The notes under the pieces were generated by a model, which was given only the letters and a program-made list of their open reading frames with translations, did not search any database and had not been told where the DNA came from. Below are positions 235 to 40,870 of a stretch of DNA of 41,799 bases, in pieces (positions within the stretch are counted from its first letter, which is position 1; each line of letters begins with the position of its first letter). The translations under genes and the position numbers were made by a program. This stretch comes from a virus, in the IMG/VR virus record IMGVR_UViG_3300042567_000358, positions 1 to 41,799 of that record. One strand, 5' to 3'.

Positions 235-242
235 TATTTATA
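235..242 (-). promoter_or_regulatory. T4-type late promoter octamer, exact TATAAATA
   Basis: On the minus strand the eight bases are TATAAATA, followed by CATT and then the ATG at 230. In T4 this octamer occupies about -13 to -6, so transcription would start at or next to the ATG. The element overlaps the stop codon (238-240) of the preceding oxygenase gene. Confidence 0.7.
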
Positions 243-717
243 GATTTTCAAAGGTAAGATGTAGTCTATCTTCCTTACCTGCATTCGCAAAGGTGTGGGG
301 GATTGCCTGATTAACTACATAAGCGGAACCATTTGCCGGCATAAAGAATGCGCGGGTATCGTAAATAAACCTGCATCCAGTATTAGACATGATAGGAATA
401 TGTGCGCAGAACCTTCCCGGATCTGTATGCCAGTTATAACACCTATTAGGCAAAACTAATCTATAAACAACACTATTGAACTTTTGCAGCTTAAATACTG
501 ATTCTATAACCTGAGTTGTATAGGGCAATAGTGATAACTCGTGACTCGCAACATCATTTGAAATAAGGTGAAATTTCTTTTGCACTAAAGTAGCGTTGCC
601 GTGGTCGTCAACATCTTCTAATTTATCTTGAATTAGCTGGTATTCTTTCCGTAGCAATAGCATGTCAAACTGCAAATCAGGTATACGGTCTATATAGAGT
701 GTGATTGGTAAGGTCAT
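238..717 (-). CDS. Small 2-oxoglutarate/Fe(II) oxygenase-like protein (aspartyl/asparaginyl hydroxylase type)
   Basis: The 159-aa protein carries the pattern of a double-stranded beta-helix dioxygenase: HTD at residues 97-99, a distal histidine at 141 (in IPHTFANAG) and an arginine at 151 that could bind 2-oxoglutarate. The motif NWHTDPGRFCAHIPI followed by an NAG/R segment resembles the Asp/Asn beta-hydroxylase family, which hydroxylates protein or peptide side chains. The substrate is unknown. The gene follows the tmRNA on the same strand. Its ATG is five bases after a GATAAATA octamer, with no clear ribosome-binding site. A second domain with the same HxD...H...R pattern is found at the start of the 586-aa protein at 12337-14097. 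The iron ligands are seen directly; the hydroxylase role is inferred. Confidence 0.75.
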   Translation of the reverse strand: MTLPITLYIDRIPDLQFDMLLLRKEYQLIQDKLEDVDDHGNATLVQKKFHLISNDVASHELSLLPYTTQVIESVFKLQKFNSVVYRLVLPNRCYNWHTDPGRFCAHIPIMSNTGCRFIYDTRAFFMPANGSAYVVNQAIPHTFANAGKEDRLHLTFENL

Positions 718-730: not shown

Positions 731-985
731 GGGGGTAAGTTGGCGGATTCTGTTTCTAAGCTCCGCCGGGCTCACAGGATTATGCCGCTAGGGCAAGTTC
801 CACATTGTTGTCATTAGCTGCGACATTTACAGTTTTTGGTCTATAAGCGACCACCCTATTAATCTACTCTCACCTTTGCTTTGCAGTCGATCCTATTTCG
901 CCCCCATAAGTTTATGGTGGAGGCGCCGGGTACCGCCCCCGGGTCCTGCACAAACATTAGATCGTATCAACGACTAATCTTGTTA
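731..985 (-). ncRNA. ssrA: Permuted (two-piece type) tmRNA
   Basis: Read on the minus strand, the order is acceptor piece, short spacer, coding piece. The acceptor piece ends CGCCTCC-A-CCA at 915, preceded by a tRNA-like T arm (CCGGG, seven-base loop, CCCGG). A nine-base spacer TAAACTTAT (906-914) follows. The coding piece then begins GGGGGCG at 905, and its seven bases pair with CGCCTCC to rebuild the acceptor stem (one G-U pair). GGATCGAC follows, as in known tmRNAs. A helix-2 pairing joins TGCA and CAAA of the coding piece to TTTGTGCA of the acceptor piece with a 3-base bulge. The tag frame is at 780-821, and a GGCGGA/TCCGCC stem lies after it. The outer ends (985, 731) are approximate. 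Permuted tmRNAs are known from alphaproteobacteria, some cyanobacteria and some betaproteobacteria. The gene shares a transcript direction with the two small genes upstream. Confidence 0.9.
780..821 (-). other. tmRNA tag reading frame, AANDNNVELALAA-stop
   Basis: From the resume codon GCA (819-821) the frame reads Ala-Ala-Asn-Asp-Asn-Asn-Val-Glu-Leu-Ala-Leu-Ala-Ala and ends in TAA (780-782). The AND/N start and the hydrophobic ALAA end are the known proteolysis-tag pattern (ClpXP recognises the terminal LAA/ALAA). The AANDN start resembles alphaproteobacterial tags such as that of Caulobacter. It does not resemble the marine cyanobacterial tag, which begins ANNIV as I recall it. Confidence 0.9.
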
Positions 986-990
986 AACTC

Positions 991-1323
991 TTATTGGTAC
1001 CAGCAGTTGCGTCCGGCAACATACGGATTACCATAGTAATCATACTGTACTACATCTTCGCATACATACTGCGGCTGGCGACGATATTCACGATACTCAT
1101 AACGCTCAACTACACGAGTGCTGCGATTGTTACGATTGCTGTTTGCGATAGCTGCTCCAAGAACCAATGCACCTGTAATTATGGCAACTGCTTCTCCTGT
1201 ACGGATACCTCTGTTATGTCGCTCAGGTCTTTCATAACCACGGTCATGACCGCCGCGATGATTTGCCATAGCAGGTGTAGCAATCATTGAGACGGCAATA
1301 AGTGCTGCAATAAACTTCTTCAT
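991..1323 (-). CDS. Small secreted protein of unknown function (signal peptide, Arg/His/Tyr-rich)
   Basis: The 110-aa protein starts with a clear signal peptide, MKKFIAALIAVSMIATPAMA, with a likely cut after AMA at residue 20. A basic His/Arg/Gly-rich stretch (21-40) follows, then a hydrophobic segment (about 43-61, VAIITGALVLGAAIA) that could cross or bind a membrane. A tyrosine-rich tail follows, ending YDYYGNPYVAGRNCWYQ with two cysteines (C88, C107) that could form a disulphide. AAGGAG precedes the ATG. The gene lies between the 43-aa membrane peptide and the tmRNA, in line with early expression from the promoter at 1484-1512. An envelope role during infection is possible, but nothing in the sequence fixes a function. 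Confidence 0.8.
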   Translation of the reverse strand: MKKFIAALIAVSMIATPAMANHRGGHDRGYERPERHNRGIRTGEAVAIITGALVLGAAIANSNRNNRSTRVVERYEYREYRRQPQYVCEDVVQYDYYGNPYVAGRNCWYQ

Positions 1324-1569: not shown

Positions 1570-2199
1570 ATGAATAATATCAAACTAGACAGTGACCATA
1601 TCATACTATGGTTCAATATGATCAGAGACCTACCCGAACCCGAGCGGTCACGCGGCTTAGATGCATTTTGGGACGGACAAATCCACAGCAAAATATGGTT
1701 GTCTGAAATGCTGAACAAACACTATGACAGCAAGATTCCTAGCAACATTTATATCTTTGGTGGCTGGTTAGGTGTATTAGCTAACATATTATTTCAGAAT
1801 AGCAAGTTCTATATCGACACAATCTACAACATCGATCTTGATCCATGGTGCAAATCAAATAGTGAGAAATTAAATCAAACTTACACTAACATGCAACGCT
1901 TTCAAGCAGAAACAATTGACATGCAAGAATACCAGTACAACGATAATACTGATATAGTCATCAATACAAGCACCGAACATGTATCACAGGAAACATATGA
2001 TGTATGGTACAACAACATACCAAAAGGCTCACTCGTAGTGTTGCAAGGAAACGATTTCTTCTCGTGTGATGAGCATGTTAGATGTAGCAAAGACCTAGAT
2101 GAGTTCATGACAATGAATCATGTTCACGAACCCATCTTTTCAGGTCAACTAAAGACTTCTATGTATAACAGATTTATGTGCATCTTTAAAAAAGATTAA
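1570..2199 (+). CDS. Class I SAM-dependent methyltransferase-like protein
   Basis: This 209-aa protein is the only plus-strand gene in the window. Residues 59-71 (NIYIFGGWLGVLA) fit motif I of a Rossmann-like methyltransferase. An acidic end of strand two follows at residues 88-92 (NIDLDPW), where the ribose of SAM would bind. Residues 128-138 (DIVINTSTEHV) fit motif IV. The glycine pattern of motif I is loose (GGWLG rather than GxGxG). The substrate cannot be read from the sequence. The gene runs toward the giant gene and their stop codons overlap at 2196-2199, leaving no room for a terminator. A late promoter octamer ends five bases before the ATG. The family is likely; the target is unknown. 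Confidence 0.7.
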   Translation: MNNIKLDSDHIILWFNMIRDLPEPERSRGLDAFWDGQIHSKIWLSEMLNKHYDSKIPSNIYIFGGWLGVLANILFQNSKFYIDTIYNIDLDPWCKSNSEKLNQTYTNMQRFQAETIDMQEYQYNDNTDIVINTSTEHVSQETYDVWYNNIPKGSLVVLQGNDFFSCDEHVRCSKDLDEFMTMNHVHEPIFSGQLKTSMYNRFMCIFKKD

Positions 2200-5100
2200 T
2201 ACTTACTGTCAAACCTATCTTTCAACCAATCCCAATAGTAGCTTTGACGCAACTGAGTTAGGTCACCGTTAACTTCATCGTAAAATTCAAGACCGTCTAA
2301 CGCACCCTCAATAGACCAGGCGCCGTAACTACCTTTACCAACACTAGTCCATACATCAAGTCTCTGTTTGGCAACTTCGTCGCCGTTATCTGAATATCTT
2401 TTTAGCTTTACTGCTTCTCTGAAAGCAGTTCTCCAAGTGCTGTGTGCGTCAGTATCACCTACTACAATACCTGAATTCAACTCTACAGTCATGTGAGGAC
2501 TATCCAAAGTAAAGTCTAGCCCAACACCCAAGTTGTTTAATACTAAATTCTTATTATACAATACCATTGATTGGTGACCATAGAACAAATCATTTACTGG
2601 ATTGTGTGCATTAAAGATATAGTGCTTTGGCATCTGCATTCTATCAGCTTGATAGTTCCAGTCAAACTTCTTATTGATAAACAGCTTAGCGGGTACACAG
2701 AAGAACCAAGGTGTTTTACTTTGTTCTGCGGCGGCGTGTAGTGCTTCTGTTCTACCGTTGATGCCGTCAACTCTGTGCATCTTGTTAGCCAATCCACGAG
2801 TATATTCAGATAGATGCTCATAATTTTGTTCGGCCACGAGTTCACCGTTGCTCACAAACACAATATCAAGTGCTTTACTCTTTGCAAGTTTAGGCATACG
2901 CTTGATATACGGGTATTCATACAGTTCGTTTGTAACATGATCTTTGGCTTCTGCGGGAACAACAATCCTAGTCCCACCAGTGCTAGTAATCAATATGTTC
3001 TTTGATTCCGGAGACCACAGATTCATTGGTTCAACAACAGTATCTTCAATTCCTATGTTGTCCTCTGTGATTAAGGTTGCGTACGGGAAGCCTGTTACAT
3101 TCTTGATTGCTGCAACCTGAGTATCATCAGTTGTTACAATGACGGGTTCCGGGAGTCTCTTTACTTTGATAGTAGAATTAAAATTGACCTTATGGAAATC
3201 TTCTAATTTTTCCATGTCATTGATTAATTCACGAGCCTTATTAACATCTACAAAGAATGTATCGCCAAACTTCTGCATACCGCTAGGGAATACATGCAAC
3301 TGATCTTTAGCGTATGGGTCGCAGATGTACGAGAAATCAAAATCAGTATAGTCACATACACTGGAACAAATCCAAATATAGTGTTCTTTCTTTTCTTGCT
3401 GCCTCTTAATGATGTCCTTTAAGGTATCAAAATAGCTAACATTATATGGGACCGTAGTGACAGTTCTACCTGATGTTTTGTTATTAACAATTTCTAATAC
3501 ATTAGATAGTTCTTGATTGCCGTGATCAATCACAACAGTATCGTACACACAACCAGTAGCAATTGCTCTGCGTTCCTTAACAAAGTTCAATGTTGATAGG
3601 TGTTCGATAATCTTTACATATTTCGTATCTTCGGGAAATGATTCACGATTTACCATAAAGGTTGTTCCCCAATGATTCCACTGAGTTCCAAACACATGCA
3701 CCATCTTCATCTGCCAAGGGTTAGGATAATAGTCAAAATCAAAATTACTATAGTCTAGTTCACTGTTTAAAATCCAAAGAACCTCGGTAGTTGACCGATT
3801 TATGCAGCGATTAACTGTATCTACCCAACTGTTAAGGTACCTAGTCTTTTGAATTTTTGTACCAAATTTCGCTTTTAATGCTTCGAATCTTGCTGCTGAC
3901 TCTGGATTACTTCTATCTACATAGAACATGTCAGGTTTTACGAACATTTGTACTAATGTTTCGTCTGTCAGTTCAACAGTTTCAACAAACTTAAAGGAAT
4001 TTTCACCTGCCAAATAATTATCAGCACTCACGAAATAAGTCTGAGTAAGTTCTGAGTCTACCGAACCAAACACATGCACATAATTTAATTCATATGCAAC
4101 CTCTACAATGTTCGGAAGCCAGGTAAAATCAAAGTTAGTATAGTCAATATTTTTTCGCAGCGCCCAAAAGATTTCGCCAGGATGTGCCTTGACGAGGTCT
4201 TCAAGTGTAGTTTCAATGTAATATTGTGAAACCGTAATGCCCGTATCATTTTCAAGTTCGACACGCTCCAAATATACTATTTCTCCGTTATTATCTGGAG
4301 TAATGTATCTAGGACCATCGTGGTTGTCTAACTTAGTACCAAACTGATAGATGTAAGGGGGTGCTAATGGATGCGGTACCCAACTAAAGTCAAACTTTCG
4401 GACATCAATATTTTGCGGGACTTCCCAATTAATTCTTGAAGTCAGGGTCTTTGCCTTCACATCTTCGACATAAAAGTGTTCGGTTGCTCCAGGTACGACA
4501 TAGCTAGGTCCGCCCCTATCATTCCATGTTGTAGCAAACTCGTATATATAAGGCGGACTTTTGGGATGCGGTACCCAACTAAAGTCAAAGCTAGATGCAT
4601 CGATGTTTTTAGGTACATTCCAATTAGCCATATTAGGAGCTAACTTAGCTTTAACATTATTAATATACTTTAGTGATTCTGCGCCCTGTTCAACATATTG
4701 TATCGTAGGCATTTCTTCTGCTGAGTATTGGGTGTTGCCAAACACATAGATGTAGGGTTCTGTTGTTTCATCTGGGTGCCATGAATAGTCAAAATTCTCT
4801 ATATCGTATCCATTCAGAACTTTCCAATGATTGCTCTTATTAGCAAGTCTAGTTGCCTTGATGATACGAGTATCAACATATTTTACAGAAGACCGATTAG
4901 TGGCTCCTGGTGCAAAGTAGCGAGGGCCACCTGTCTTTTGATGTTGAGTTCCAAATTGGTATATAAAAGGTTCATCTTCTGCATATGGGTGCCAGCTAAA
5001 ATCAAACGAGTCAACATCAATAAGTGTTAGATCATATTTCCAATTGCTCTTATCTGGCAATGCAATTGCTGATGGGTTATCCATGTATTTAAGTTCGGTG

Positions 5101-8100
5101 GCGCCAGGTACAGTATATACCGGACCACCACTTAATGCCCACTGAGTACCAAAACGATAGATGTATGCTGGTTCAGTAGAATCAGGGTGCCAACTAAAGT
5201 CAAACTCGGATACATTAATGTTGTCAGCAATGGTCCAGTTAGCCCGATTAGGCAATATAGTGGCATGTTGAAAATCGACATACTTAGTTTCTACTGCATC
5301 AGATACTACATAGCGAGGACCACCTGTCTTCTGCCACTGAGTACCAAACTCATAGATATAAGGAGGTTCGTTTGGATTAGGTATCCAACCAAAATCAAAT
5401 TCAGTAGTATCAACTCCCTTAGGAACTTCCCAGTTATCCATATTAGCAGCAAGTGTTGCTACAGCCTCATGAACATACTTTGTTTTTGTAGCGCCAGGCG
5501 TTTGATATTCAATAGTAGCACATTCTTCTGCTGGGTACAGGGTGTTTCCAAATACATAGATGAATGGTTCTTCAGTATCATCTGGGTGCCAGCTATAATC
5601 AAAGTCTTTAATCTTATAGTTACTGACCCAATTATACTTTTCTTTATTAGGCAGTCGTTTTGCTTTGAGAATACGAGTATCAATATATTTTATCGGACTA
5701 GAACTATCAGCACCGGGCGTGATATATTTAGGGCCCCCAGTCTTCTGCCACTGAGTACCAAACTCATAGATATACGGTTGATCTTCTGCGTATGGATGCC
5801 AGCTAAAATCAAATGTCTTAGCGTCAATCAAGGTTGGATCATACACCCAATTGTCTTTGCTGGGAAGTGCGAGAGCGGTTTGCTCATCCATGTATTTGAT
5901 TTCAGTTGCCCCTGACACATGATATGCAGGTCCGCCGCTAAGTGCCCACTGAGTACCGAATTGATAGATGTACGCAGGGTCAGTGTCATCAGGATGCCAA
6001 GAGAAGTCAAAATCAACAATATCAACATTCGAAGGGATTTTCCAATTATCTTTGTTGGGCAACGAGACTACCTTTTGGAAATCCAAATACTTGATTTCAG
6101 TAGCGCCGGGTACTACATAGCGAGGGCCGCCGGTCTTCTGCCACTGAGTACCGAATTGATATATCTGATCTGGTTCTAGTGGGTCTGGTCTCCAGGCGAA
6201 GTTGAATCCTGAGGTGTCAACATTCTTTGGAATATCCCATTTATCCATTTCAGGTAGCACTGCTACATCATCTGACATGTACTTGATATCAGATGCACCT
6301 GGTACTACATACTCAATAGTTGCTTTATATTTGTTACTAATATACTTGTTACCCCAACGATACACATAAGGAGGGTCCTTAGGGTTAGGTAACCAACTAA
6401 AATCAAACTTACTTTCGTCTATTGATTGAGTAATTACCCAATTGTCAGTATTAGCACCTAGGATAGCAATGATGTCTCCTACAAACTTTCTTTTTGTTGC
6501 ACCTGATACCCTGTATTCAACTGTAGGGCATTCTTCTGCTGGATATAGGTTATTACCAAACACATAGATGAATGGTTCTTCTGTGCTGTCAGGATGCCAG
6601 CTATAATCAAAATCCGTAACCTTATAATCATTGACAATTTTCCAATTGTCAGTTGGATTAGCAAGACGCTTAGATTTAATAATTCTAGTGTCAATGTATT
6701 TTGTGGGGCTATTGCTATCTGCGCCCGGAGTAATATACTTAGGGCCACCTGTCTTCTGCCACTGAGTACCGAACTCATAGATATAGGGCTGATCTTCTAC
6801 ATATGGATGCCAACTAAAATCAAATGAGTCGATATCAATTAAGTTTGAATCGTAAACCCAGTTATCCTTATTAGGAAGTGCGATAGCAGTTTGCTCATCC
6901 ATGTATTTGATTTCATTAGCGTTAGGTACACAATACGAAGGACCACCACTTAGTGCCCACTGAGTACCAAACTGATAGATGTAGCCCGGGTCTGTATTGT
7001 CTGGATGCCAACTAAAATCAAAGCCAGCGACATCAACATTTGAAGGGATTTTCCAATGCTCTTTGTTAGATAGTGCAACTACCTTCTGAGAATCTAAGTA
7101 CTTAATTTCAGTAGCATTAGTAACTGCATAGCGAGGGCCACCAGTCTTCTGCCACTGAGTTGCGAATTCATAGATGTAGGGAGGATCATTGGGATTCGGG
7201 ACCCAAGCAAAGTCAAAACCAGTAGTATCAATATATGACGGGATTTCCCAATTAGTATTAACACCTAATGTAGCAATAGCATCCCCTACATATTTTCTTT
7301 CTGTTGCACCTAAAACATGATATTCAATAGTAGCACATTCTTCTGCTGGATACAAATTATTACCAAACACATAAATGAATGGATCTTCAGTTTCATCGGG
7401 GTGCCAGCTATAATCAAAGTCTTTAATAACAAAGCCATCGACAATAGTAAATTTAGATATTGAGGGTAATTTTTTAACAGAGAACAAGTCTACATACTTA
7501 ATTTCGGTAGCGCCCGGTACTACATAACGAGGCCCGCCCGTCTTCTGCCACTGAGTACCGAACTGGTAGATATAGGGTTCTTCTGCTGGACTTGGTTCCC
7601 AACTAAAGTCAAATCCAATTGTGTCAACATCATCTGGTATTTGCCAGTTATCGGGGCAATGTAATCTTGTTACGATATCTTCTTGGTAGCGATATTCAGT
7701 TGCTCCCGGGACACGATATTCAATTGCAGGTCTATCTTCTGCCTTTACCCATTGATTCCCCCAAGCATAGATATAAGCAGGATCGGTTGCGTCCGGATGC
7801 CAAGACCAATCAAAACTTGATATGTCAATAGTGGAATCGTATTTCCAATTCTCAGTTGAAGGGAGCTTCTTAACTTTCTGAGTGTCAATATACTTAACCT
7901 CTGTAGCACTCGGCACTACATAACGAGGACCACCTGTCTTCTGCCACTGAGTACCAAACTCCCAAATTAGATCCGGTTCTAATGGATCAGGTCTCCAAGT
8001 AAAGTCAAAACTTTCAGCATCAACACCTGCTGGAATTTCCCATCTATCCCATTCTGGAGTAACCATGACATCATCTGTCATGTACTTGATTTCAGTAGCA

Positions 8101-9977
8101 CTCGGTACAACATACTCAATAGTTGCAGCGTATTTGTTGCTGATGTACTTGTTACCCCAACGATAGATATAGGGAGGATCGTTTGGATTCGGCTTCCAAC
8201 TAAAGTCAAAAGCTTCTTCATCGATCGGTTGCGTGATTACCCAGTTAGTCTTATCAGCATCCAAAATAGCAACTACATCATTGACATACTTTGTTTTAGT
8301 TGCACCCTTAACACGATATTCTAGCGTGGGCATTTCTTCTGCTGGATAGAGACTATTGCCGAACACATAGATGTACGGTTCTTCTGTGTTATCAGGATGC
8401 CAGCTAAAGTCAAATTCTTTTATTTTATAATTATATGTCCAATGCTCATCACTTACAGGAAGCCTTTTGGCTTTCAAGATTCTAGTATCAATGTATTTCT
8501 TAGGCGAACTGCTGTCAGCACCGGGAGTAATATACTTTGGTCCACCGGTCTTCTGCCACTGAGTACCGAACTCATAGATGTAGGGCTGATCTTCTACATA
8601 TGGATGCCAACTAAAATCAAATGTGTCGATATCGATTTCAGTAGAATCATATACCCAATTAGTCATTTCTTTCTTAGCAGTAGCAACCTGATCATCTACA
8701 TACTTTATTTCAGTAGCACCGTCGACTGCGTATACAGGACCGCCGCTGAATGCCCACTGAGTAGCAAATACATAATTATAAGGAGGGCTAGTATCGTCTG
8801 GATGCCAGCTAAAGTCAAACCCAGTGCTATCAATATTGTCAGGAACTTTCCAGTTTGCTGATGAAGGAAGCTTTTTGACTTTTTGAAAGTCAACATACTG
8901 CTTCTCTGTTGCGCCAGGTACTATGTACTGCGGGCCACCTGTCTTCTGCCACTGAGTTGCGAATTCATAGATGTAAGGAGGGGCAGCAGGGTTAGGCTCC
9001 CAACTAAAATCAAATCCCGTAATGTCAACATCGTCCGGAACATTCCAATTATCTAAACATGCTTTACGAATAGCACGGTCAGACATGTACTTATATTCAG
9101 TAGCACCTGATACTACGAACTGTACTGAAATTTTATCTTCTGGTGCGTTCCATTGGTTGCCCCAAACATAGATATACGGAGGACTGGTTGGATCCGGTCT
9201 CCAACTATAATCAATACCATAACTGTTTTCTAGATGCTCAAACAATTCTTTGTCGGGTGCAACAGGTATAAGTTCTGACAAATACTTCTTATCTGTGGCA
9301 CCAGGTACACTATACTCAAGCGTAGGTGAAGACTTACCATCTACATACTTGCTACCCCAAATATAAATGAGTGGCGGGTCGAGTGGGTTAGGGCGCCATG
9401 ACATATCAAATCGATTTTTATCAACTGCTTGATGTTCTACCCAACGGTCATATTCAGGAACCAATTCTACGATTGTGTTCATGTATTTTTCTTGCGTGGC
9501 GCCTGGAACATGATATTCTAATACATGCTTAAGGACAGCCGGGAAGAATTTACATCCCCATTTATAGATATACGGAGGGTCAGTTGGATCTGGATGCCAG
9601 CTAAAATCAAACTTACTATGGTCGATTAAGTCTAGCTCAACCCAAAAATCACTTTGCTTTTCATTCTTGCGTGATATAATATTAACATCATTCCGGTAGA
9701 TGATAGTATCGCTGTGTTCTTTAGCACACAGCCAAGTACCACTATCTTTCTGATGTTGACTAGGCCAAACATTGTTATGATCTTCTGCCCATACATCTTC
9801 GTCAGGAAGAAACTCAAAATCAAAGTCCCAGTCAAAATTGCGGTAATCACAAAATTCGTTGATTATCCAAAAGTGTTCAGTAGTACACTTTTGTCTAGCA
9901 TCTGCTAGATTTTTTACAAATTGTTCTCTGGGGTGTGCATTCGGCTTAGAACCGTAATAAAAAACATCTCTTAACAT
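2196..9977 (-). CDS. Giant 2593-aa tandem-repeat protein with a C-terminal GT-A-like domain
   Basis: The protein has three parts. The N-terminal 120 residues contain a diverged repeat unit (FWIINEFCDYRNFDWDF, residues 36-52). From residue 123 to about 2250 come some 30 units of about 66 residues. Each has a core like FDFSWHPDPTDPPYIY, then usually FGTQWQKTGGPRY, PGATEIKYVD and a W-anchored spacer. The last about 226 residues (from about 2368) match the protein at 34847-35797: a D-I-V-F-V-S strand, RVDGINGRTEALHAAAE, a VNDLFYG segment, WRTAFREAVKL and a W...GAWSIEGA segment. In that relative the active-site-like DGD is present. Here the position reads CVPAK, so this copy may be a binding domain only. 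There is no signal peptide, membrane segment or collagen pattern. The function is unknown; a surface or scaffold role in glycan work is a guess. Such repeat proteins occur in other marine phages, as far as I recall. Confidence 0.85.
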   Translation of the reverse strand: MLRDVFYYGSKPNAHPREQFVKNLADARQKCTTEHFWIINEFCDYRNFDWDFDFEFLPDEDVWAEDHNNVWPSQHQKDSGTWLCAKEHSDTIIYRNDVNIISRKNEKQSDFWVELDLIDHSKFDFSWHPDPTDPPYIYKWGCKFFPAVLKHVLEYHVPGATQEKYMNTIVELVPEYDRWVEHQAVDKNRFDMSWRPNPLDPPLIYIWGSKYVDGKSSPTLEYSVPGATDKKYLSELIPVAPDKELFEHLENSYGIDYSWRPDPTSPPYIYVWGNQWNAPEDKISVQFVVSGATEYKYMSDRAIRKACLDNWNVPDDVDITGFDFSWEPNPAAPPYIYEFATQWQKTGGPQYIVPGATEKQYVDFQKVKKLPSSANWKVPDNIDSTGFDFSWHPDDTSPPYNYVFATQWAFSGGPVYAVDGATEIKYVDDQVATAKKEMTNWVYDSTEIDIDTFDFSWHPYVEDQPYIYEFGTQWQKTGGPKYITPGADSSSPKKYIDTRILKAKRLPVSDEHWTYNYKIKEFDFSWHPDNTEEPYIYVFGNSLYPAEEMPTLEYRVKGATKTKYVNDVVAILDADKTNWVITQPIDEEAFDFSWKPNPNDPPYIYRWGNKYISNKYAATIEYVVPSATEIKYMTDDVMVTPEWDRWEIPAGVDAESFDFTWRPDPLEPDLIWEFGTQWQKTGGPRYVVPSATEVKYIDTQKVKKLPSTENWKYDSTIDISSFDWSWHPDATDPAYIYAWGNQWVKAEDRPAIEYRVPGATEYRYQEDIVTRLHCPDNWQIPDDVDTIGFDFSWEPSPAEEPYIYQFGTQWQKTGGPRYVVPGATEIKYVDLFSVKKLPSISKFTIVDGFVIKDFDYSWHPDETEDPFIYVFGNNLYPAEECATIEYHVLGATERKYVGDAIATLGVNTNWEIPSYIDTTGFDFAWVPNPNDPPYIYEFATQWQKTGGPRYAVTNATEIKYLDSQKVVALSNKEHWKIPSNVDVAGFDFSWHPDNTDPGYIYQFGTQWALSGGPSYCVPNANEIKYMDEQTAIALPNKDNWVYDSNLIDIDSFDFSWHPYVEDQPYIYEFGTQWQKTGGPKYITPGADSNSPTKYIDTRIIKSKRLANPTDNWKIVNDYKVTDFDYSWHPDSTEEPFIYVFGNNLYPAEECPTVEYRVSGATKRKFVGDIIAILGANTDNWVITQSIDESKFDFSWLPNPKDPPYVYRWGNKYISNKYKATIEYVVPGASDIKYMSDDVAVLPEMDKWDIPKNVDTSGFNFAWRPDPLEPDQIYQFGTQWQKTGGPRYVVPGATEIKYLDFQKVVSLPNKDNWKIPSNVDIVDFDFSWHPDDTDPAYIYQFGTQWALSGGPAYHVSGATEIKYMDEQTALALPSKDNWVYDPTLIDAKTFDFSWHPYAEDQPYIYEFGTQWQKTGGPKYITPGADSSSPIKYIDTRILKAKRLPNKEKYNWVSNYKIKDFDYSWHPDDTEEPFIYVFGNTLYPAEECATIEYQTPGATKTKYVHEAVATLAANMDNWEVPKGVDTTEFDFGWIPNPNEPPYIYEFGTQWQKTGGPRYVVSDAVETKYVDFQHATILPNRANWTIADNINVSEFDFSWHPDSTEPAYIYRFGTQWALSGGPVYTVPGATELKYMDNPSAIALPDKSNWKYDLTLIDVDSFDFSWHPYAEDEPFIYQFGTQHQKTGGPRYFAPGATNRSSVKYVDTRIIKATRLANKSNHWKVLNGYDIENFDYSWHPDETTEPYIYVFGNTQYSAEEMPTIQYVEQGAESLKYINNVKAKLAPNMANWNVPKNIDASSFDFSWVPHPKSPPYIYEFATTWNDRGGPSYVVPGATEHFYVEDVKAKTLTSRINWEVPQNIDVRKFDFSWVPHPLAPPYIYQFGTKLDNHDGPRYITPDNNGEIVYLERVELENDTGITVSQYYIETTLEDLVKAHPGEIFWALRKNIDYTNFDFTWLPNIVEVAYELNYVHVFGSVDSELTQTYFVSADNYLAGENSFKFVETVELTDETLVQMFVKPDMFYVDRSNPESAARFEALKAKFGTKIQKTRYLNSWVDTVNRCINRSTTEVLWILNSELDYSNFDFDYYPNPWQMKMVHVFGTQWNHWGTTFMVNRESFPEDTKYVKIIEHLSTLNFVKERRAIATGCVYDTVVIDHGNQELSNVLEIVNNKTSGRTVTTVPYNVSYFDTLKDIIKRQQEKKEHYIWICSSVCDYTDFDFSYICDPYAKDQLHVFPSGMQKFGDTFFVDVNKARELINDMEKLEDFHKVNFNSTIKVKRLPEPVIVTTDDTQVAAIKNVTGFPYATLITEDNIGIEDTVVEPMNLWSPESKNILITSTGGTRIVVPAEAKDHVTNELYEYPYIKRMPKLAKSKALDIVFVSNGELVAEQNYEHLSEYTRGLANKMHRVDGINGRTEALHAAAEQSKTPWFFCVPAKLFINKKFDWNYQADRMQMPKHYIFNAHNPVNDLFYGHQSMVLYNKNLVLNNLGVGLDFTLDSPHMTVELNSGIVVGDTDAHSTWRTAFREAVKLKRYSDNGDEVAKQRLDVWTSVGKGSYGAWSIEGALDGLEFYDEVNGDLTQLRQSYYWDWLKDRFDSKY
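3230..9615 (-). repeat. About 30 in-frame tandem units of about 200 bp with a higher-order period of about 1.8 kb
   Basis: Counting FDFSW-like cores gives about 30 units. Variants fall into types: HPYVEDQP (type A), HPDxTEEP with YVFGN (B), PNPNDPPYxYRWGNKY or the EFGTQW form (C), RPDPLEPD (D) and HPDxTDPAY (E). Counting from the N-terminus, units 6-14 read A B C D E (A-like) B C E and units 15-23 read A B C D E A B C E. A nine-unit block thus appears twice, about 1.8 kb apart. Matching DNA stretches near 8571-8625 and 6775-6830 are almost identical. The last three units (FDFTWLPN, FDFDYYPN, FDFSYICD) are diverged and may be ancestral. Confidence 0.85.
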
Positions 9978-21864: not shown

Positions 21865-22658
21865 ATTAATTCCTGCGGCACAGTTCTAGGGTCAAGATTA
21901 GGAAAAATCTGTTCGAATTCTGAGTAATGTTTAATTTGTCGCAATGCATTAGTTGAATCAATTGCATACTGCATTGCTTCATCACTCAATTCTATTCCTA
22001 TTTTTTTAAGATAGTTTGCATATCGTAACGGCGCCGGGTGATAATCTTCATAAAAGTCTGGATCCGACCAAGACTCAATGTACTTAGAACCATGTTCCCA
22101 ATAATTGTCCATTTCCAACTCAAACATATTATCCAAATAACTATCTTCTAATTCTTTATATAGGGTTAGCACCTGTGTTACAGTACTGTTGTTTAAATCC
22201 TGTTGATAGTTAAAAGGGACACTTAGCATAGCTAAAGTGTCACTCGGCAATGCGTTAAGATATGATGTAGTGAGATCAATGATGGACAAATCCCTGACTA
22301 AAAATGTCAGTGGGTCAGCGTATGTCACCAGATAATCTTTGTCAGCAAACTTAAGATCACCTTGCGTATAGATGTTACCGGGCGTTGACCAACCTTGATT
22401 CGGAAGATATCGATCTTCTCTACAGAATGTGCTCCACATAACCATTACTAAGTCAGTATCACAAAATTTAAACTTGCGGTTAGCCTCAGTTATTCTATTA
22501 GCGATGAATACATTGCCTCCGCCGCTACGGCCAAAATTATAAAACTCAGCTTGGCTGATGTGTTTACCCATAATATTTGCCCATGTGGGATACTTATAGC
22601 CAGTAAAGCTACACCCAAATGCAAATACTCTTTTATACTTGTTATAATCGTACATCAT
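21861..22658 (-). CDS. SGNH-hydrolase-like protein (4 of 5), tandem copy
   Basis: The 265-aa protein starts with two adjacent ATGs (22658 and 22655). The first overlaps the stop of the glycosyltransferase-like gene as ATGA and is preferred. Motifs are RVFAFGCSFTG (Ser17), YNFGRSGGGNVFIANR, DLVMVMWS and a C-terminal DYHPAPLRYANYL. It is the tandem relative of 21064-21864, with middle and C-terminal parts diverged, so acceptor or acyl specificity may differ. It stands directly after a free-standing member of the glycosyltransferase-like family. Confidence 0.72.
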   Translation of the reverse strand: MMYDYNKYKRVFAFGCSFTGYKYPTWANIMGKHISQAEFYNFGRSGGGNVFIANRITEANRKFKFCDTDLVMVMWSTFCREDRYLPNQGWSTPGNIYTQGDLKFADKDYLVTYADPLTFLVRDLSIIDLTTSYLNALPSDTLAMLSVPFNYQQDLNNSTVTQVLTLYKELEDSYLDNMFELEMDNYWEHGSKYIESWSDPDFYEDYHPAPLRYANYLKKIGIELSDEAMQYAIDSTNALRQIKHYSEFEQIFPNLDPRTVPQELI

Positions 22659-23812
22659 GTTAGGGCAGTGACAAAATTATCTTTTAGTGCAGAACTCTTA
22701 TTAGTCAATAGTTGATAGTTATATTCAACTATTTCTTTTACCGCAGTTAAGAATTCTACTAACTGTGGTTCGCTTAAATTACTTAATCGTTCTATCTCGT
22801 TAACTATCATTTTTAATCTTTCATAGTCATTGATTTCTTCATCATAGCTTTCATCTATATACGGACTGAATGTTTTATATCCTAATTCTTTTAACTTACT
22901 AAGACTGTGCGGTCTTGACACTAGTATAAAAGGATGACATCTTAGTATAGGCTTAAAGACTTTTTCACTTAGAAACAATCCTTCTCCTAAATCCTTAAAG
23001 TAATTTGTTTCATTTACAATACTAAAGTAAGTGTTCTCGTAATAGTAATCTAAGTTATTGTCTACCTGTACCTGATTCACATATAGTTCAGGAGTATCTA
23101 AAAACATGTCCGGAATGCTTTCTATTCTATCTCTATTACTCTGAAACAAGTTATACAGTTCCGGGTCACAGTGCTGTACTGAGCCTTGAAGATAACCATA
23201 TACACTATCCCAATTTTGACCGTCTACATTTTTACAAAAACTGACATGTCCCTTATCTAATAGATTGCGTAGCTCTAGTAACCCAACTAGTATTGGTCTG
23301 TGCTGGCGCCAGCGACGATTAAGATTCAAATATTTCTTGTCATACTGTTTTATCTCTAGTGTATTCAACTTGCGATAGTTCTCTATATTAGTGGCTTGCT
23401 TTACATTGTACTCAAAAATACGCATCCATTCAATCTGTATATATGGTTTACTGAATACTTTTGACACTCTGTCCACTTCTTCCAATATACTTGCAGACTC
23501 AGTTAGTAGTCTGATATAAGCCGGCGGAAAATTAAGATCCATTATAAAGTATCTATAAATGAATTCTATAGGATCATGATATGCTTCGTGACTGTTGTTT
23601 AATAGTAATGTGGCGCTGCCGCTTCTGATTCTATCTCTGATTTCTTCAGGAATAAAATCAATAGCTGCGATTAAATTCCAACCATGATGAAAATCAATAT
23701 ACCAGTAATCAGTATCTTCAAAATCATAAAAATACATCAGTGAAGACCCTAATCGTAGCTCGGGTCCGTTGTCACTGAAGAAATGTATGTTTTCTTTATT
23801 AAGTAATGCCAT
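22655..23812 (-). CDS. Glycosyltransferase-like family protein (free-standing)
   Basis: The 385-aa protein has the two-block layout shared by five proteins here. Block one is KKYLNLNRRWRQHRPILVG with NLLDKGHVSF. Block two is YFSIVNETNYF, LSEKVFKPI, PFILVSRPHSLSKLKELGYK and FSPYIDESYD. Glu..SEK resembles the donor-binding motif of GT-B and fucosyltransferase-type enzymes, so glycosyl transfer is a reasonable inference, though I cannot name a defined family. The N-terminal 140 residues are specific to this copy. It overlaps the following SGNH gene by four bases and begins one base after the radical SAM stop region, consistent with one operon. Confidence 0.65.
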   Translation of the reverse strand: MALLNKENIHFFSDNGPELRLGSSLMYFYDFEDTDYWYIDFHHGWNLIAAIDFIPEEIRDRIRSGSATLLLNNSHEAYHDPIEFIYRYFIMDLNFPPAYIRLLTESASILEEVDRVSKVFSKPYIQIEWMRIFEYNVKQATNIENYRKLNTLEIKQYDKKYLNLNRRWRQHRPILVGLLELRNLLDKGHVSFCKNVDGQNWDSVYGYLQGSVQHCDPELYNLFQSNRDRIESIPDMFLDTPELYVNQVQVDNNLDYYYENTYFSIVNETNYFKDLGEGLFLSEKVFKPILRCHPFILVSRPHSLSKLKELGYKTFSPYIDESYDEEINDYERLKMIVNEIERLSNLSEPQLVEFLTAVKEIVEYNYQLLTNKSSALKDNFVTALT

Positions 23813-40249: not shown

Positions 40250-40870
40250 TTATGTTGTTATCAAGTTGGTCAAGCTTTGGATTCGTACAGTATAATCAAT
40301 CTGAATCTGCCTGTTTAATGATTTTTGAACTGGGTGAAAGATTACATGAGTCAGTAACCGAGTGATAACATTTCCATTACTGTCTGATCCGTAATTTGCT
40401 AATAGGCCCAGTTCATCAAATATATAAGAACTATCAGTTTGCGTGCTATTGTCGAAAGCAGCTTGCCCGGATGGTTCGCCGTAATCAAGTAAACACTGCA
40501 CAAGAATGTCAGTGTAAGTTCTGCCAGTAGTGTGGAACACTGTCATCTTGTTACGAGTGGGGTCTAGGTTGAAGACACTAGTATCATCTACAATCTTTGC
40601 GTATGTCTGATTGTAGAGAGCAGCATTTTGCCCGGTAGTATTAGGTGGAAGGTAAGTGATGACACCAGTGTCATCTACGCTTGCTCCGCCATTGCCAAAT
40701 GCCATTTGATAGATTTCTCCATATCCGCGACTACTTAAAGTATCAGCGATTGCTTCTGACATGTTCTCATAATTAATGGCATTGTGCTTGTCTACGAAAA
40801 TTTCACCTGAATTGGGGTCGTAAATTTTTAAAAAGCCTTCAACCTTATAAGACAATGTAATTAAAGACAT
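40250..40870 (-). CDS. Virion structural protein (206 aa)
   Basis: The 206-aa protein starts MSLITLSYKVEGFLKIYDPN with SGEIFVDKHNAINYENMSEAI, continues with LSSRGYGEIYQMAFGNGGAS, and ends in strands typical of baseplate or tail proteins (RLLTHVIFHPVQKSLNRQIQ). I know similar proteins from cyanophages and pelagiphages as virion structural proteins. The ATG overlaps the stop of the 49-aa gene as TAATG. AGAGGGG lies just before. The exact role in the virion is not certain. Confidence 0.78.
   Translation of the reverse strand: MSLITLSYKVEGFLKIYDPNSGEIFVDKHNAINYENMSEAIADTLSSRGYGEIYQMAFGNGGASVDDTGVITYLPPNTTGQNAALYNQTYAKIVDDTSVFNLDPTRNKMTVFHTTGRTYTDILVQCLLDYGEPSGQAAFDNSTQTDSSYIFDELGLLANYGSDSNGNVITRLLTHVIFHPVQKSLNRQIQIDYTVRIQSLTNLITT

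Follow-up and report, generated by a model that had tools for sequence, protein, structure and literature searches.

A complete, circularly permuted gene for tmRNA lies at about 738-985 on the minus strand of the window, the whole 41.8-kb IMG/VR fragment that was analysed (41,799 nucleotides); ARAGORN, cmscan against Rfam and reading of the sequence all found it. Judged from the gene and its relatives, it very probably encodes a functional, phage-owned tmRNA of the alpha type that a clade of giant phages of the T4 superfamily has retained. A sequence-only reading had placed a circularly permuted tmRNA at 731-985 and given no strand; ARAGORN, both Rfam models and the sequence itself bear this out.

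ARAGORN called a permuted tmRNA (tmRNA*) at 689-1007 of the minus strand with the tag VAANDNNVELALAA. The alpha_tmRNA model RF01849 matched 738-1023 of the same strand over its full length (model positions 1-355, 84.2 bits, E 1.6e-21), with a gathering threshold of 50 bits. The tmRNA_permuted model RF04321 matched 780-975 of the minus strand, again over the full model, with 89.7 bits and a gathering threshold of 47 bits. The detection is thus far above chance level. The best clan match is alpha_tmRNA, in agreement with the description of the gene as alphaproteobacterial in style. The free fold of the precursor is 2.2 standard deviations better than that of shuffled sequences, which taken alone lends weak support. 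The parts of the gene and the landmarks around it are as follows.

738-1023, minus strand: permuted tmRNA gene, full alpha_tmRNA span with precursor and flanks (RF01849 match)
915-985, minus strand: acceptor piece, first in the gene, 5' end approximate (RF01849 and RF04321 alignments, sequence)
926-942, minus strand: T arm, CCGGG / GGCGGTA / CCCGG (sequence; T stem 5/5 in parsed phage relatives)
919-925, minus strand: 3' strand of the acceptor stem, CGCCUCC, containing U70 of G3:U70 (sequence)
918, minus strand: discriminator A (sequence)
917-915, minus strand: encoded CCA (sequence)
906-914, minus strand: intervening segment TAAACTTAT, 9 nt, presumably discarded at maturation (sequence)
899-905, minus strand: 5' strand of the acceptor stem, GGGGGCG, probable mature 5' end of the coding piece (7/7 pairs with 919-925)
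738-905, minus strand: coding (mRNA-like) piece, 3' end approximate (RF01849 alignment)
780-821, minus strand: tag frame, AANDNNVELALAA followed by a stop (ARAGORN, sequence)
821-819 and 782-780, minus strand: resume codon GCA and stop codon TAA (sequence)
742-767, minus strand: post-tag hairpin GGCGGA...TCCGCC with AACAGAA in the loop, fitting the 3' part of the alpha model (RF01849 alignment, fold)
238-717, minus strand: downstream gene, 159-aa Asp/Asn beta-hydroxylase-like protein (PF05118, E 2e-9)
991-1323, minus strand: upstream gene, 110-aa protein with a signal-peptide-like N terminus (blastp)
40250-40870, minus strand: gene for the 206-aa phage marker protein (phrog_11259)

The acceptor piece lies ahead of the coding piece, with the intervening segment between them. 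The acceptor stem forms all seven of its pairs, including G3:U70, the alanine identity pair of the acceptor stem, and the T arm is complete. AUAGGAUCGAC is present in the coding piece between its GGGGGCG start (905) and the tag. The tag codons at 821-783 read GCA GCT AAT GAC AAC AAT GTG GAA CTT GCC CTA GCG GCA, so that the resume codon, the stop and the hydrophobic AA end are all in place (AANDNNVELALAA-UAA); the seven-base stem, T arm and stop-terminated tag frame described earlier are therefore found as described. The tag would be AANDNNVELALAA if the resume codon is the GCA that follows ...AUGUC; the ARAGORN tag is one codon longer, (V)AANDNNVELALAA.

The clade to which this phage belongs was found with the 206-aa protein. 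Viral contigs contain at least 599 relatives of this protein, of which the best 80 share 88-98% identity with it and come from contigs as long as 525 kb. By this protein the cultured relatives are the jumbo phages Phosso and Atu_ph07 (about 50%) and the Asteriusvirus group of E. coli (about 45%). In the window the tmRNA is on the strand of the 206-aa gene and about 39 kb further downstream. Every one of the 22 relatives that reach 88 kb has a permuted tmRNA (RF04321), a count of contigs that are mostly fragments and are not to be read as independent events. One of them (G022) fell under the cut-off in the first search, probably owing to a long insert, and scored 99.8 bits when searched again. 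In the relatives the tmRNA is always on the strand of the 206-aa gene and 18-42 kb downstream of it. The T4 major capsid gene, gp23, is not in the 41.8-kb window; it is present in 15 of the 21 clade contigs searched. The earlier label of a phage-encoded, T4-like gene thus appears right at the level of the superfamily, through these relatives. Boxes resembling the late-promoter sequence TATAAATA precede about five genes of the window.

Both genes that flank the tmRNA are conserved and lie on the minus strand. Homologues of the 110-aa protein are found upstream of the tmRNA in G021, G025, G030 and G081 (39-48% identity, E 1e-17 to 6e-31, blastp), and homologues of the hydroxylase downstream of it in L002, L003/L004 and G030 (59-67% identity). 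Pairing of tmRNA and hydroxylase as a clade-wide functional unit was considered and rejected, as the adjacency is confined to the window, G030 and L002-L004. Farther along, the window holds at 9986-36000 a long cassette of carbamoyltransferase, radical SAM/B12, UDP-glucose dehydrogenase, nucleotide-sugar epimerase and aminotransferase-like genes, situated between structural-type genes and the tmRNA; its content suggests surface-sugar modification. A 385-aa protein at 22655-23812 has no match among cultured phages, and a 2593-aa protein at 2196-9977 has no PHROG or Pfam match.

The gene would be transcribed as a single minus-strand precursor, which may also include the upstream 110-aa gene. The 9-nt segment would be cut out by RNase P and 3'-trimming nucleases of the host, leaving two RNAs joined through the acceptor stem and helix 2, which host AlaRS could charge by way of G3:U70. 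Host SmpB would then bring the phage tmRNA to ribosomes halted on truncated messages, which phage-driven mRNA decay is expected to produce. Translation would restart at GCA and append AANDNNVELALAA, whose LAA end should pass the tagged product to ClpXP. The likely benefit would be that ribosomes are kept cycling late in infection by an RNA matched to the host type.

A search for SmpB gave no match in 27 records, possibly incomplete and including contigs of 525 kb and 352 kb; the same search was positive in 10 of 14 control genomes. Since only the RNA appears to be supplied, host SmpB, AlaRS and RNases would be needed. The earlier proposal that the phage brings its own ribosome rescue thus holds for the RNA, and the protein partner was not found in these records. 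The suggestion that leaderless late mRNAs create the need for a tmRNA found no support: only two gene starts of the window have a suitable box, and a link between such boxes and the tmRNA could not be established. These boxes, GATAAATA and TATAAATA at 730 and 242 of the minus strand, lie 4-5 nt before the ATGs at 717 and 230. They resemble late promoters and would fit near-leaderless messages in the case of these two genes alone.

The lack of an SmpB match would also suit an RNA that works against the host system, titrating its SmpB or replacing host tagging by an altered tag instead of aiding rescue. There is a precedent in mycobacteriophage DS6A, whose tmRNA consists of the tRNA-like domain only, and such a molecule inhibits endogenous tmRNA (PMC4131195, PMC11915505). 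A decoy needs no tag, yet the window and nearly all relatives retain a whole tag frame, from the resume codon to the stop, with a tag that ends in AA; G030 and G021 both have the tag AANDNNVDLALAA. A decoy or modulator is therefore improbable, and a tmRNA that takes part in rescue is the preferred reading.

The stems of this tmRNA appear to be under selection. In the parsed relatives the acceptor stem has 7/7 and the T stem 5/5 pairs, and double compensatory changes occur at acceptor positions 4-6 (for example G-C to C-G and C-G to U-A) and at T positions 1-3. The G3:U70 pair is invariant in all 38 parsed copies; G015 and G055 were left out of the parsing, and G025 was paired by hand (GGGCCTG 7/7 with CAGGTCC). 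The sequence-only reading was to be given up if no tmRNA model matched or if stem and tag were not kept in relatives; full-model matches and compensatory stem changes were found. The same changes bear on the idea of a recently acquired, neutral passenger gene, which could account for the replacement of one tmRNA type by another within the clade and for intervening segments that differ between near-identical copies. Such a passenger would hardly be retained in 22 of 22 long contigs with compensatory changes maintaining its stems, and this explanation is very improbable.

The type of the tmRNA, by best Rfam clan match, is alpha in the window, G030, G021 and G025. It is beta in G045, G014, G035, G033, G037, G023, G029, G009, G044, G007, G008, G011, G012 and G015. 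Five further copies (G013, G018, G022, G031 and G034) weakly reach the alpha threshold, with 50-74 bits, and have body and tag sequence in common with the beta-type copies. Together with G017 they were treated as mosaics and counted as not alpha; in these six the type models score weakly or not at all and the tags are mostly beta-like, so the split between alpha and beta is not clean. The typing of G081, G067 and G028 was done partly by reading of the sequence. Most of the clade thus has beta-type or mosaic tmRNAs at this site, and the alpha type is found in the sub-clade of the window. On the tree of the 206-aa gene (615 columns) the alpha type is one change, the window-like alpha tmRNAs falling into one group, and the AU test does not reject a tree that keeps them together (p 0.66).

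The 37-mer of the window that runs from the T domain to CCATAAAC is found exactly in 16 bacterial contigs; the titles of 15 give alphaproteobacteria, and that of the remaining one gives unclassified Proteobacteria. A search for the nearest host tmRNA, by a scan of genome contigs and of 289 alphaproteobacterial genomes, gave matches to the tRNA domain only, the best being 95% over 61 nt, in small genomes. In the 289 genomes there was no match to the window outside the tRNA domain of about 60-75 nt, and naming a host from tmRNA similarity was therefore rejected. The window scores 89.7 bits with RF04321 against mostly 113-162 bits in alphaproteobacterial hosts, and hence some drift or phage-specific change has taken place. 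The tmRNA type is a reasonable host clue: the alpha type is seen in the window's sub-clade, where it would mirror an alphaproteobacterial host, and such a host is plausible from these sequences. The clue claimed earlier is weakened by the beta-type and mosaic tmRNAs at the same locus in close relatives, the type following the phage sub-clade.

That the gene is instead a piece of a host tmRNA marking the edge of a prophage or island, as its position less than 1 kb from the left end of the contig and the known use of tmRNA as an integration site (PMC4383910) might suggest, is very improbable, because both pieces are complete, the tmRNA is syntenic within contigs of up to 525 kb bearing phage genes, the same neighbour genes recur in independent phage contigs, and matches to host tmRNAs in the 289 alphaproteobacterial genomes stop at about 75 nt of tRNA domain.

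The intervening segment is 8-499 nt long in 92 non-identical phage copies and 3-115 nt in 57 bacterial copies, the latter a biased host sample drawn from Proteobacteria matches and mostly alphaproteobacterial by tag. These sampled proteobacterial segments are short and free of open reading frames (ORFs). Among the 52 phage segments that measure 90 nt or more, 28 have a longest ORF with p <= 0.05 against dinucleotide shuffles, where 2-3 would be expected under independence, which related phages do not have. The nested ORFs are 38-123 aa long and occur at L234/L273 (G024, 123 aa), L272 (G022, 104 aa), L274 (G010, 101 aa), L210 (G023), L019 (120 aa), L020, L021 and L047, and further at L035, L046, L051, L073, L115, L082, L091, L104 and L112. 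They often start after a TAAGGAG directly 3' of the CCA and often end at ...TGATGGG. Rfam models span them with up to 137 bits, showing that the tmRNA halves on either side belong together. G017 lay outside the segment parse and was checked by eye.

A 44-aa family, nested in five viral contigs, has a pN/pS of 0.19 in frame against 1.46 and 2.56 in the other frames; the ratio is 0.20 for a 38-aa family and 0.48 for a family of two sequences. Where testable, in the two best-sampled families (pN/pS about 0.2), these ratios indicate purifying selection on the nested ORFs. The 44-aa ORF has no protein match in cultured phages. The nested protein of G024 has a homologue outside the segment in G021 (56%); for the nested proteins of L019, L020 and L021, too, other phages encode homologues in stand-alone genes away from the segment. 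The segment TAAACTTAT of the window is identical in G030; 119-126 nt take its place in G021, G081 and G025. In this sub-clade G030 and G021 have acceptor pieces that agree at 64 of 64 positions, with segments of 9 and 121 nt. In Melnitz (L368, MZ577097.1, about 46,090-46,250) an unannotated ORF lies inside the annotated tmRNA, with the Shine-Dalgarno sequence GGAGAAGTATATG, and reads into the coding piece. One segment (G028:C1:260302-260394, L223/L369) contains a skipping-rope RNA (RF02924, 46.8 bits); as a general content of the segment this RNA was rejected, since it occurs in G028 only among 44 records.

The phage intervening segment is thus probably a slot for nested genes. ORFs would lie between the tmRNA halves, often with a Shine-Dalgarno sequence after the CCA and a stop that adjoins the coding piece at its mature 5' end, and maturation would release a small mRNA. 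Genes would enter and leave the slot between related phages, the slot being empty (9 nt) in the window and G030 and apparently occupied, without annotation, in Melnitz. A non-exhaustive literature search found no published description of an ORF nested in a phage tmRNA segment, and these genes would be a new arrangement, if translated.

In these giant T4-like phages, a very widespread clade, the ribosome-rescue RNA is a fixed gene with conserved synteny and not an occasional passenger. Its type switches in place between phage sub-clades, making it a usable though indirect marker of host lineage for uncultured jumbo phages. Such genes are common, because one 18-base alpha-tmRNA pattern occurs in at least 120 stretches of viral contigs. 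Counts of phage tmRNAs that rest on annotation are too low: in RcRudolph, Cp1R7A-A1 and Phosso the gene either lacks annotation or is listed as a protein gene. The tmRNA of Rhodobacter phage RcRudolph (OP009285.1, 49133-49421; L242/L244), permuted and scoring 103.6 bits, is annotated as hypothetical protein RCRUDOLPH_61, and that of Mesorhizobium phage Cp1R7A-A1 is unannotated.

Two-piece tmRNAs in phages have been described before: 18,146 phage genomes gave 133 unique tmRNA structures, of which 53 are two-piece candidates, those of Melnitz and Mosig included (PMC9004378), and the current database holds 79 unique phage tmRNA sequences (PMC11915505). Permuted tmRNAs in T4-like phages are thus already published, and the window adds one more case. 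The T4-like marine phages Melnitz (of Methylophilales) and Mosig (of Pelagibacter) have a two-piece ssrA; like the window they combine a circularly permuted alpha-type tmRNA with a T4-like myophage and a presumed host SmpB (PMC9004378). Melnitz differs in having a 141-kb genome, in infecting OM43 and in a tmRNA that adjoins a glutamine riboswitch (PMC9004378), whereas the window phage belongs to a giant clade and its tmRNA has secreted-protein and hydroxylase neighbours and a 9-nt intervening segment. A glutamine riboswitch (RF01739) also lies directly 3' of the phage tmRNA in L026 (1019-1072, minus strand), as published for Melnitz (PMC9004378). The study of huge phages (PMC7162821) reports tmRNA and SmpB among them; the window phage shares the tmRNA, and in its clade SmpB was not found. 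DS6A likewise encodes a tmRNA-related RNA, but without the tag frame that the window has (PMC4131195).

The 206-aa proteins of Sinorhizobium phage Phosso (469 kb) and Agrobacterium phage Atu_ph07 (490 kb) are 50-52% identical to that of the window. Atu_ph07 has no permuted tmRNA match; Phosso has a permuted tmRNA with the tag ANDNVSTKVALAA, unannotated in its record, and differs from the window in its intervening segment of 410 nt. The bacterial members of RF01849 and RF04321, such as that of Caulobacter, resemble the window in gene order, in the acceptor stem with G3:U70, in the T arm, in UAGGAUCGAC, in the ANDN start of the tag and in the post-tag hairpin with AACAGAA. The window differs from them in a score below that of most members and in its short 9-nt intervening segment, although similarly short segments are found in some alphaproteobacteria with small genomes.
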